From: a bacterium
Lineage (GTDB): Bacteria > NPL-UPA2 > JAUVJM01
Length of the DNA stretch: 10,841 nucleotides
Reading direction: 5' to 3'
NCBI GenBank assembly: GCA_030606215.1
Contig: JAUWGW010000031.1
Coordinates: forward strand, 1-10,841
Below the pieces are notes generated by a model. It was not told the origin of the DNA, ran no database searches, and worked only from the letters and a program-made list of their open reading frames with translations. A program made the translations under genes and the position numbers. Below, piece after piece: positions 147 through 3,245 of this stretch (the stretch's first letter is position 1; each line of letters opens with the position of its first letter).

Positions 147-509
147 TCATAGAGGCGAAGCTATACTTAATATATACGATTCATGTTTCAATTTAACATC
201 TAATGTCCATAGAGCGGCTTCACTTAATATTGCAGATGCAAGAAGATGAACATCAACCAAACCAAGCCCTTTACCCATTAAATTATTTCTTTCAATAAAT
301 AATAGAACTTCTGCATTATCCAATAAATCAACTTCAGGCAGTGCACTTAGTAAAGATAATATTCCAGTTCTATTCTTAATATTGCCGCATGCAAGCTCTC
401 CAATAATAAATGGGTGACAGAATACATCTCCATCATTCAATAATTCTTCAAGCTTGGAATTGCCATCGCGCAGATGTGAAACCCATACAGATGTATCAAC
501 AAGAATCAT
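147..509 (-). CDS. vapC: VapC-type PIN-domain ribonuclease toxin
   Basis: This 120-residue protein is a complete PIN domain, the usual VapC length. PIN toxins are Mg-dependent endoribonucleases that cleave tRNA or rRNA and are held inactive by VapB. The four acidic metal ligands are visible: D5 in MILVDTSVW, E38 in IIGELACG, D86 in GLGLVDVHLLASA and D104 in LWTLDVKL. The ATG shares one base with the stop codon of the upstream antitoxin gene (TAATG), so translation is coupled. The end of the insertion sequence begins within about ten bases of the stop codon. The C-terminus still looks full length, so the toxin is probably intact. In my reading the pair is the third unit of a gene-cassette array. 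Confidence 0.9.
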   Translation of the reverse strand: MILVDTSVWVSHLRDGNSKLEELLNDGDVFCHPFIIGELACGNIKNRTGILSLLSALPEVDLLDNAEVLLFIERNNLMGKGLGLVDVHLLASAILSEAALWTLDVKLKHESYILSIASPL

Positions 510-700
510 TAGTTGACTCTCCTGCGCGGTATAGTATGCAATTTTTTTTCAGTTCCTCCCAATTTGGCTAATCTTCTACCGCTTTCCCGGGCGATGAGTG
601 CTTCCAAACCTAATCTAACCAATGTAGTTTTCTCTTTTATACCTGTAAGCTTAGATACTTTTTTGATCAAGTCATCTTTTATATTTAATGTTGTTCTCAT
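509..700 (-). CDS. vapB: VapB-type ribbon-helix-helix antitoxin
   Basis: The 63-residue product starts MRTTLNIKDDLIKKV, the beta strand and helix of Arc/MetJ-type ribbon-helix-helix antitoxins, and continues TGIKEKTTLVRLGLEALI. The basic tail IPRRR is usual in this VapB subfamily and contributes to toxin binding. An in-frame ATG at 743-745 would add 15 residues. I chose the ATG at 698-700 because an AAGGAG site lies about nine bases upstream and family members start at MRTTLNI. The longer form would also begin inside the promoter. The stop overlaps the vapC start by one base. The protein is expected to neutralise VapC and to bind the repeats in its own promoter. Confidence 0.9.
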   Translation of the reverse strand: MRTTLNIKDDLIKKVSKLTGIKEKTTLVRLGLEALIARESGRRLAKLGGTEKKLHTIPRRRVN

Positions 701-725
701 TTGTAATCTCCTTTCATACAATACA

Positions 726-762
726 TATGCACTATTATGCACCAAATATGCACATATGTCAA
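726..762 (-). promoter_or_regulatory. vapBC promoter with three phased operator repeats
   Basis: On the minus strand, TTGACA (757-762) is followed by a 17-base spacer and CATAAT (734-739), a near-perfect sigma70 promoter. Three copies of GTGCATA (747-753, 736-742, 726-732) start 11 and 10 bp apart, one helical turn each, and lie across the spacer, the -10 box and the region just downstream. This is the layout expected for cooperative ribbon-helix-helix autorepression by the VapB-VapC complex. Repressor binding itself is inference. Confidence 0.75.
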
Positions 763-767
763 GTTTT

Positions 768-802
768 CCTGCCTAAAATCGTGCCAGCTATTTTAGGTCA
801 GG
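768..802. repeat. 12-bp hairpin with one bulged base
   Basis: CCTG+CCTAAAAT (768-779) pairs with ATTTTAGG+CAGG (790-797 and 799-802). T798 is the only unpaired base and the loop is 10 bases. No T-run follows on either strand, so it is not a normal terminator. Its single extrahelical base resembles the two attC-like elements nearby, but good R-box sequences are lacking. It lies just upstream of the vapBC promoter. Confidence 0.6.
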
Positions 803-867
803 TTCATTGATTTGTTATGGCTTGATTTTATGCGTACATAAGACGATGACACCTTGGCTCTGGAATA

Positions 868-936
868 GGCTCACTGTGCTCACTTGCTGCTATGAAACGC
901 AGCGGAATAGCGGTCAGGTGCAACGCTTTGTTAGGC
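868..936 (-). other. attC-like recombination site 2 (right half decayed)
   Basis: On the minus strand this 69-base element opens with GCCTAAC (936-930), a perfect RYYYAAC R'' box. It ends with GTGAGCC (874-868), which pairs with the first box at five of seven positions but lacks the GTT expected at the crossover. Inside, bases 881-893 pair with 907-920 as a 13-bp stem with two G-T wobbles and one bulged base, T914, closing a 13-base loop. Length, boxes, spacers and extrahelical base match integron attC sites. The element lies 53 bases behind the stop of the exported-protein gene on the same strand, as a cassette's own attC should. The imperfect right box suggests decay. Confidence 0.5.
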
Positions 937-989
937 AAATATTCCTCTTATCAAGTGTCAAAGGTTTACTTCCCCTCCCCCTGTTTCAT

Positions 990-1595
990 TTAGGAGAGAG
1001 CAGCTAATTTTTTGTAGTTGATACTCATGGCGTAGCTTGTCAACTCTTCCTTAGTAACATCATTCCCCTCTACAGTAATAAGGAAACGATTTACAACTAC
1101 GATACTGATCTCCCCGCTTCTGCCTGTTGGGCTATACTTGACAATAGCTTTCTGACCGCCTATCTTTTCCAATTTTCCTCCGCCTGATGCTGCAAACATG
1201 GGGTTGGTGAACATCATCATCATGCTTTGCAGTACCGGAGAATCAGTAACTATTTTGACAGTGACAGAACTGGAACTTTTATGATACTGCCGCTCTGCAG
1301 AAACCCCACCACCGAACATTGCAGCACCAACAGCCTGAGAAGTAGAGTCTTTTGCCGTCCACCCCGTCAAAGGCTTCGGCAAAAACGATTGTAACTGCTC
1401 ACCTCTTTTCTGGCGGATCAATTGGGAAACATAATCGAGACTTCCCACAGCGGCTGCGTATTCGCCATTTTTATATTGCTGCAGCGCCTCATTTATTGAA
1501 TCAGTAACTTCGTCAGCACTGGCTAAACCGAATGGAGCCACCAGTACCATTGCCAACAACACTGCTTTTGCTGCATTCATATGTGCTTTGCGCAT
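990..1595 (-). CDS. Exported protein of unknown function
   Basis: The 201-residue product begins with a clear Sec signal peptide: basic MRKAH start, hydrophobic core AVLLAMVLVAPFGL and likely cleavage after ASA at residue 27, so it should be periplasmic. The mature part has a short helical segment (about 30-65, TPR-like in flavour but too short to call). A beta-rich region follows, with a GAAMFGGG stretch, a run of four Met at 125-128 and a conserved-looking VTVKIVTDSP strand. I do not recognise a named domain. The ATG at 1593-1595 has a strong AAGGAG site, preferred over the internal Met6. The start lies 34 bases inside the preceding attC-like boundary and no promoter is visible. It fits a promoterless gene cassette read from upstream. 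Confidence 0.75.
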   Translation of the reverse strand: MRKAHMNAAKAVLLAMVLVAPFGLASADEVTDSINEALQQYKNGEYAAAVGSLDYVSQLIRQKRGEQLQSFLPKPLTGWTAKDSTSQAVGAAMFGGGVSAERQYHKSSSSVTVKIVTDSPVLQSMMMMFTNPMFAASGGGKLEKIGGQKAIVKYSPTGRSGEISIVVVNRFLITVEGNDVTKEELTSYAMSINYKKLAALS

Positions 1596-1623
1596 TCTTT
1601 TCTCCTTTTTTAATTTTTTCTTA

Positions 1624-1684
1624 TCCTAACGCTGGAATTCACCCGCGCAGTGGTAACGGCATCGGGTAGAATGATTTGTTGGAC
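1624..1684 (-). other. attC-like recombination site 1
   Basis: On the minus strand the element opens with GTCCAAC (1684-1678), a perfect RYYYAAC box. It closes with GTTAGGA (1630-1624), six of seven matches to GTTRRRY with the crossover GTT intact. Between them ATTC+ACCCG (1637-1645) pairs with CGGGT+GAAT (1663-1667 and 1669-1672), leaving A1668 as a single extrahelical base and a 17-base loop. The unpaired spacers next to the boxes are 6 and 5 bases. The 61-base size lies in the attC range. It starts 15 bases behind the stop of the HAD gene on the same strand. No T-run follows, so it is not simply a terminator. Confidence 0.58.
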
Positions 1685-1699
1685 ATTTTATTCTTCGAA

Positions 1700-2431
1700 T
1701 TAAGGCAGCAGTAATTCTTCAAGTTCGTTAAGATGTTCGATTCGTGCATCAGGGGAATGATCCTTTTCTGCTGGCTCGAAACTCTCATAGGGCACATACT
1801 GAGTTGTGAAAATCGAACACATTCCCATCCGCTTAGCCCCTTGCACGTCAGCTAACCAATTGTCTCCGATGTATACGCATTCTGATGGATGAAGACCAAG
1901 CTGCAATAACATAGATTCAAAAGGTTTGGCATGAGGCTTAACATAACCAACATCACCGGAGACGACCACAACTTCAAAAATCTCCGACAACCCGATCTTC
2001 ACGAGACTGTCTCTAACAGACCGGCTACAAGGGTAGTTAGATAAAAGCCCGAGACGGTATCGCCGTCGAAGTTTGTTCAATAGCGCCATCACACCATCGG
2101 GGAGTTCCACAGCACGAACAAATAATTCGTAGCGTGTTTGAATCAACCTCTCCACTTGACACTGTTGCGGAACGATATCGTAAACTCCACGAATTAGCTC
2201 CTCACAAAGAACTCTTGGGTTATTCTCCTTGTAGCCGCTGCTGAACGGAGCGACAATTTGGCTATCACGTGCGGCTTTCAGGCGCGACGCATCGCAGAAA
2301 CCAAACAACTCTGTAAGGACCTTCACGAGTGCCGCATACTGATACGCGATTTGTCTTGGTCCAAATTCAATCAGCGTATTGCCTAAGTCAAAACAGAGAG
2401 CTTTGATCTTATCGGGAGTAATCGGCATCAT
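1700..2431 (-). CDS. HAD-superfamily hydrolase, class I cap type
   Basis: The 243-residue protein shows the ordered HAD motifs: I at residues 13-20 (CFDLGNTL, nucleophile D15), II at 129-133 (LLSNY, S131), III at K165 (YVKPHAKP) and IV at 188-199 (IGDNWLADVQGA, D190 and D195). An alpha-helical cap insert lies between motifs I and II. HADs of this type mostly dephosphorylate small metabolites or nucleotides; the substrate cannot be read. The second acidic residue of motif I, usual in phosphatases, is Gly17, which is less common but known in DLGNTL members. Two adjacent ATGs open the frame and no strong ribosome site is seen. Base composition looks richer in G+C than its neighbours. It lies between a GTTGGGC core site and an attC-like element, as a gene cassette would. 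Confidence 0.88.
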   Translation of the reverse strand: MMPITPDKIKALCFDLGNTLIEFGPRQIAYQYAALVKVLTELFGFCDASRLKAARDSQIVAPFSSGYKENNPRVLCEELIRGVYDIVPQQCQVERLIQTRYELFVRAVELPDGVMALLNKLRRRYRLGLLSNYPCSRSVRDSLVKIGLSEIFEVVVVSGDVGYVKPHAKPFESMLLQLGLHPSECVYIGDNWLADVQGAKRMGMCSIFTTQYVPYESFEPAEKDHSPDARIEHLNELEELLLP

Positions 2432-2453
2432 TGATCTTTTTTCTTACGCTTAT

Positions 2454-2460
2454 GCCCAAC
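2454..2460 (-). other. GTTGGGC core site at the cassette-array boundary
   Basis: On the minus strand GTTGGGC matches the integron crossover consensus GTTRRRY fully. It starts five bases after the stop codon of the inositol-monophosphatase gene and 22 bases before the HAD start. No partner R'' box or stem is visible inside the upstream gene. If real, it is a simple or secondary insertion site rather than a full attC. A seven-base match alone is weak; its position is what makes it notable. Confidence 0.35.
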
Positions 2461-2465
2461 AGGCA

Positions 2466-3245
2466 TTAGCTCAAGTTGCTTAGGAGTTTCCGGATTTCAT
2501 CGTGTATTAACCCATTTGATGAGATATATGGTCCGCTGGATAAATACCACGGTTTACCGGAGAAATCTGTCACCTTTCCACCAGCTTCCTCAACTATCAA
2601 AGCCCCTCCGTAGATATCCCAGGGCTTGACATTGTATTGTATATCAGCATCTACCTTCCCCTCAGCTACGCTGGAAAGGCCCCTGACGCAAGCTCCGAAC
2701 ATCCTGATATTGAAAACTGAATCTACAAGCCTCCTGAATCCTTCAAGCATTCGCTTGCTGTCGCGGCGAAAACTACTGTTATGGGTAATACACGCATCTT
2801 CTAACTTTCTCCTGGAAACCTGTATTCTTTTTCCATTCAGATATGCTCCCCTACCTTTCTCACAGCAATATAGTTGCCTGGTAGCAGGAAGATATATAAT
2901 CCCAATTACCGGGTCATCCAGATGTGTAATACCGATAGATACTCCGAAAATATCTATCTCGTGAAAATAGTTGTGTGTCCCATCAAGCGGGTCAATTATC
3001 CAGCGGTATTCTGATTTTCCATTTATCTCAGGAGTTTCTTCAGTCAATATACTGTGCTCCGGAAATTTATCTCTTATAAGACAGACAATTCTCTTCTCCA
3101 CCTCAATATCAACATTTGTAACAAGACTTCCGTCTGCTTTCTTTGAAACTTCATTGACGCTTCCGAAGTTATCCATAAGGATTCGCCCTGCAGCAAGAGC
3201 GGCTTTCTTACCGAGTTCAAAAATCTCCACACTCTCTTTTTTCAT
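2466..3245 (-). CDS. Inositol-monophosphatase-family phosphatase
   Basis: The 259-residue length and motifs are those of the Mg-dependent IMPase/SuhB/CysQ family. E69-E70-T is the first metal site, WIIDPLDGTHNY (82-93) supplies D85 and D88, and VKPWDIYGGALIVEEAGG (207-223) supplies D210. Family members hydrolyse inositol-1-phosphate, fructose-1,6-bisphosphate, 3'-phosphoadenosine-5'-phosphate or histidinol phosphate, and the substrate cannot be settled here. The ATG directly abuts the PolX stop codon (TAAATG) and an AGAGGA ribosome site lies inside the end of polX, so the two are translationally coupled. It is the last gene of the DUF72-polX operon. A GTTGGGC core site and the cassette region follow its stop almost at once, so any native operon terminator has been displaced or lies elsewhere. 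Confidence 0.9.
   Translation of the reverse strand: MKKESVEIFELGKKAALAAGRILMDNFGSVNEVSKKADGSLVTNVDIEVEKRIVCLIRDKFPEHSILTEETPEINGKSEYRWIIDPLDGTHNYFHEIDIFGVSIGITHLDDPVIGIIYLPATRQLYCCEKGRGAYLNGKRIQVSRRKLEDACITHNSSFRRDSKRMLEGFRRLVDSVFNIRMFGACVRGLSSVAEGKVDADIQYNVKPWDIYGGALIVEEAGGKVTDFSGKPWYLSSGPYISSNGLIHDEIRKLLSNLS

Follow-up and report, generated by a model that had tools for sequence, protein, structure and literature searches.

A degraded integron-type cassette array, probably left by a lost integrase, behind a housekeeping gene in a rarely sampled uncultured bacterial phylum

The window analysed here is a stretch of 10,841 bases that makes up the entire contig C19 of a draft genome (G000; 1.52 Mb, 34 contigs, 93% complete). 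In the direction of transcription, the minus-strand genes are ordered as DUF72, PolX, an inositol-monophosphatase family member, a HAD hydrolase, an exported protein and a VapBC pair. The region behind the phosphatase gene had been interpreted in an initial annotation as an integron-type gene-cassette array, and its features are given below in window coordinates, with the scores of two covariance models, R1 and R2.

2466-3245, minus strand: host gene at the insertion point, complete, inositol-monophosphatase family, 259 aa (Pfam Inositol_P 6.4e-57); its 3' end at the insertion point reads ...TAATGCCTGTT
2454-2460, minus strand: entry core GTTGGGC, consisting of the host G and then TTGGGC of the cassette, 5 bp past the phosphatase stop; it pairs with the R'' box GTCCAAC of the HAD cassette
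1630-2459, minus strand: cassette 1, which carries the HAD hydrolase; it runs from TTGGGC up to the G in the R' box of attC1 and is delimited by box pairing and by the attC match to the covariance models
1700-2431, minus strand: HAD-family hydrolase gene, 243 aa (Pfam HAD_2 5.4e-20)
1624-1684, minus strand: attC1, GTCCAAC...GTTAGGA, essentially complete (R1 49.4 bits, E 3.8e-11; R2 47.9 bits)
990-1595, minus strand: gene of cassette 2, an exported protein of 201 aa with no Pfam family (open reading frame with a GGAG ribosome site, starting 34 bases inside the boundary GTTAGGA)
889-936, minus strand: 5' arm of attC2 (GCCTAACAAAGCGTTGCACCTGACCGC...), whose 3' arm is lost (R2 22.6 bits; 91% identical over 33 bp to another attC 5' arm, L009 11689-11721 on contig C13)
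821-887, minus strand: what is left of the 3' end of a HicB-like antitoxin gene, joined to attC2 by deletion (97.5% identity to L009 8749-8868; the intact copy matches Pfam HicB_lk_antitox)
768-820, minus strand: attC3, the attC of the HicB cassette, truncated and without its 3' arm (R2 7.4 bits, unfiltered)
509-745, minus strand: VapB-like antitoxin gene with its own promoter-like sequence (Pfam VapB_antitoxin 3e-14)
147-509, minus strand: VapC-like PIN toxin gene (Pfam PIN 8e-8)

No attC was found after the VapB-like gene, and it is possible that this gene is either cassette cargo or a later insertion. At positions 1-130 on the minus strand the contig may begin within the start of a transposase gene that has repeated motifs upstream of it, and the assembly may have been broken there at an insertion sequence.

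Model R1 was derived solely from six outside attC sites, five plasmid-borne ones of class 1 type and a sixth from a deltaproteobacterial MAG (L079). When used to scan 79 loci around integron integrases, it detected 32 sites at E<=0.005, all 32 of which lay on the expected cassette strand, and model R2 was built from these 32 attC sites upstream of integron integrases. The proposal that positions 1624-1684 represent an attC, for which a minus-strand covariance-model check had been suggested, is borne out by the independent model R1; with R2 the same element reaches E 1.1e-8 genome-wide, and neither model matches it on the opposite (plus) strand. As a background, no R2 match at E<=0.01 was present in 37 of 51 unrelated genomes under the stricter filters of that run, and in several of the remaining 14 the strong sites lie in clusters, like those of real integrons. 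The attC1 boxes read GTCCAAC...GTTAGGA; R' ends in A and thus departs by one letter from GTTRRRY, and instead of the single extrahelical base described earlier the stem has two unpaired positions on the L'' side. attC1 resembles the short aadA-type attC of class 1 integrons in its length of 60-61 nt, its boxes, its stem and the positions of its bulges; it differs from that type in the final A of its in-situ R' and in having lost two R''/R' pairs. Its fold by itself is unexceptional (DNA z-score -1.1 to -1.5). Thermodynamic fold z-scores and a home-made box-and-stem scanner were both too unspecific as attC tests and gave way to the covariance models, and an alignment with long loops (A1) was set aside as poorly aligned.

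Because a cassette is circular once excised, complementarity is expected between its left TTRRRY box and the R'' box of the attC that it carries. In the HAD cassette, the entry core GTTGGGC forms three Watson-Crick pairs and one wobble with the R'' box at the four variable positions, while the in-situ R' box (GTTAGGA) forms only 1+1 of four with the same R''. The entry core behind the phosphatase, noted previously, is present and thus gains support from this pairing, but as a core alone it is at chance frequency, with 23 GTTRRRY occurrences in the window against 19.9 expected. In the exported-protein cassette GTTAGGA and GCCTAAC pair at six of seven positions, and elsewhere in the genome there are exact pairs with non-consensus letters, namely GTTAGCT/AGCTAAC and GTTATGT/ACATAAC on contig C9 and GTTCGCG/CGCGAAC on contig C32. 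Over six cassettes of the genome the pairing of left box and R'' was matched by 2 of 720 permutations of R'' and by none of 5000 shuffles, figures that are to be read as a check and not as a blind trial because the C9 and C32 boundaries had been spotted by eye beforehand; the HicB cassette is a poor fit. The HAD and exported-protein cassettes so delimited have the form of an integron gene cassette, a single open reading frame bounded by a left box that complements its own R'', and the reported starts of the two frames, 28 and 34 bases inside the boundaries, agree to within one base. As to cargo, 21 unrelated genomes that encode homologues of the exported protein show no attC within about 1.5 kb of these genes, hence this protein family is not generally cassette-borne, and a plasmid search with the HAD protein returned only distant HAD enzymes.

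The second element of the array is a chimera. R2 matches it at exactly 868-936 on the minus strand, with 22.6 bits and E values of 0.0014 in 49 kb and 0.046 genome-wide; however, only its 5' arm (about 936-889) is a true attC, whereas the remainder is HicB coding sequence. Positions 768-887 are 97.5% identical over 120 bp to L009 8749-8868 on contig C13 of the same genome, which comprises the tail of a HicB-like antitoxin frame and most of its attC; the intact copy of that attC (L009 8816-8884) scores 40.8 bits with R2. What had been taken for a partial GTTRRRY box, GTGAGCC, corresponds to HicB codons and resembles a box by coincidence. As positions 887-768 copy the HicB tail and its attC, and the apparent 3' box is coding sequence, a deletion has joined two cassettes, taking away the 3' arm of attC2 together with the front of a third (HicB) cassette. 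The attC3 is cut at position 768, just ahead of the VapBC promoter region.

Further attC sites, which the initial annotation had proposed to look for on the contig, occur at three other loci of the same genome, on contigs C9 (two sites), C32 and C13, so that with the window the cassettes are dispersed over four loci. The C9 locus (L167 8167-10613) carries two well-preserved cassettes upstream of a small gene, cleaner than the array in the window, that encode an Mrr-like restriction endonuclease (402 aa) and a 333-aa protein with no Pfam family. On C32 (L166 7084-8135) there is a single cassette for a 341-aa protein, also with no Pfam family, whose exact non-consensus box pair is GTTCGCGC/GCGCGAAC. 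Toxin-antitoxin-type genes cluster at three of the four attC loci (L009 9062-9696, 8596-8808 and 11218-11677; window 147-745; L167 11536-12257) and include a HepT-like ribonuclease with a nucleotidyltransferase, HicB-like, DUF2442 and VapBC genes, and a PIN-like gene with a short upstream partner; the calls for the L167 pair and for L009 11218-11466 were made by eye only.

The array does lack a visible integrase, as had been stated, since no intI lies on the window contig. A whole-genome search found no full-length integron integrase (IntI) in this genome, only two Xer-like recombinases and one IntI fragment on C13, whose match to the final 64 positions of the integron-integrase model reaches 103 bits. 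This C-terminal remnant shares 89% identity over 65 aa with the intact IntI (410 aa, 405.6 bits) of a relative from the same family, the cold-seep MAG CSMAG_454 (G001). As the assembly is 93% complete and split into 34 contigs, an intact intI could be absent from it. Near the remnant, a second weak IntI-like piece (33 aa, 48%) is fused to the tail of hisF. The 3' end of hisF and its flank form three partial direct repeats around the C13 integron remnants (L009 8287-8322, 9821-9861 and 11976-12028), with one hisF copy fused in frame to the short IntI-like piece (L009 8293-8445, minus strand), which suggests that an integron platform was formerly located at the hisF 3' end and was rearranged there.

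Comparison of the insertion site across the phylum was limited by gene content. PolX homologues are present in seven other genomes, the closest (79%), with its DUF72 neighbour, being that of CSMAG_454; however, that contig stops one base after the polX match, and in the other relatives unrelated genes occupy the position behind polX. No homologue of the phosphatase was detected in the other eight genomes of the phylum, and hence no empty insertion site was found among them.

The covariance-model match and the further attC sites in the genome support in substance the interpretation as an integron-type gene-cassette array. In the most probable explanation, which we hold with considerable confidence, the locus is a degraded cluster of attC sites lacking integron-integrase (CALIN) that was placed behind a housekeeping gene by an integrase since lost. 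The host IntI would have recombined circular cassettes through folded bottom-strand attC hairpins and inserted them 5 bp past the stop codon of the phosphatase gene, at a site other than attI that could allow their genes to be transcribed together with the polX-phosphatase operon. The original array would have held at least three cassettes (HAD hydrolase, exported protein and HicB-like). The integrase gene would later have been broken, leaving its C-terminal remnant on C13, while the array decayed through the deletion from attC2 into HicB and the loss of the attC3 3' arm; it would now be immobile unless IntI were supplied in trans. Past IntI-driven insertion in this host, by an off-target route, is what we infer from these data, and off-target insertion followed by loss of IntI appears to be the best-fitting origin. 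Counting against this reading are the missing empty site, the incomplete assembly and the exported-protein homologues with no attC nearby, and a single relocation of an array through rearrangement retains a small probability.

An unlikely but more serious alternative is that the array once belonged to an attI-anchored chromosomal integron and was parted from intI and attI by a rearrangement or an assembly break. The contig is only 10.8 kb long and ends 146 bp beyond VapC, and a copy of the HicB cassette lies together with the IntI remnant on C13, as might be expected in that case; however, the operon is continuous with polX, a crossover-type core lies 5 bp past the complete phosphatase gene, these 5 bp leave no room for an attI between the stop and the first core, and the breakpoint of a rearrangement would have had to fall precisely at G|TT. 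Acquisition of the ready-made array on a DNA segment, by ordinary horizontal transfer and with no integrase activity in this host, would accord with the VapBC and other toxin-antitoxin genes nearby and with the lack of an intact IntI in the assembly. Such a transfer is improbable, since the genome has four separate attC loci and a shared HicB cassette, its IntI remnant closely resembles the integrase of the family relative, and the core is placed precisely after a host gene. It can be considered extremely improbable that the attC-like sequences match by chance or are terminator hairpins of an ordinary operon: folding alone is indeed unexceptional and the box-and-stem scanner unspecific, but the independent model gives E 3.8e-11, box pairs match across cassettes, and elsewhere the genome contains a homologous attC that is intact, along with the IntI remnant.

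CALINs are defined as clusters of attC sites lacking an integron-integrase (IntegronFinder 2.0, PMC9024848; PMC8618304), and off-target insertion, intI loss and rearrangement are given in reviews as their sources (PMC8618304). Like the CALINs, which are regarded as decayed or displaced integrons, the array in the window consists of attC-flanked promoterless cassettes with no integron-integrase gene nearby; its attC sites at 1624-1684 (47.9-49.4 bits) and 868-936 (22.6 bits) are recognised by covariance models, and it does not have the intI and attI beside the array that mark a complete integron. Unlike a typical CALIN, it has one complete attC, one chimera and one truncated site, and thus only marginally reaches a strict threshold of two attC sites. 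In Xanthomonas genomes, dispersed CALINs lie next to housekeeping genes and intI is inactivated (PMC12444791). The genome studied here is similar in its inactivated integrase and in having cassette clusters by unrelated housekeeping genes at several loci; however, the platform site (ilvD) and conserved positions in Xanthomonas were established from hundreds of genomes, whereas here a single genome represents the genus.

Off-target genomic insertion of cassettes by IntI has been termed attG, as summarised in papers that cite the original study (Loot et al. 2024, cited in PMC11023631, PMC12901181 and PMC12444791). As far as these accounts describe it, an attG insertion and the window boundary are alike in that a cassette is joined to a genomic GTT core that is neither attI nor attC; attG was obtained experimentally with IntI in laboratory bacteria, whereas here the event would be deduced from a natural boundary without an empty site. 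The broader proposition, that in a natural attG-type event IntI distributed cassettes among several sites other than attI, each behind housekeeping genes of a small genome, before being lost, and that integrase-less dispersed cassettes are common in this rare phylum, appears to us about evenly balanced.

The kind of element is already known and involves no new mechanism, but the present data extend integron cassettes to a rarely sampled, uncultured phylum and bring together, in one genome, the boundaries of cassettes, a disrupted integrase and scattered arrays that lack an integrase. With more genomes of this clade, the origin of CALINs by off-target insertion or by intI loss may be addressed. 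Across the phylum, attC matches (E<=0.01) occur in eight of nine genomes, while an integrase above the curated cut-off is present in only one (CSMAG_454); attC matches in unrelated genomes amount to 14 of 51, a count obtained with stricter filters than the phylum scan. Clusters of three attC sites were observed in two other genomes of the phylum, G003 (C1 72334-74200 and C12 123193-124189) and G008 (C117 296-2144), with no integrase above the family cut-off. In CSMAG_454, R1 gives 13.9 bits to a weak attC-like element (L058 10570-10638 on contig C41) that is located past the 3' end of the intact intI and close to rpsO, on the opposite side of intI from the usual attI position.
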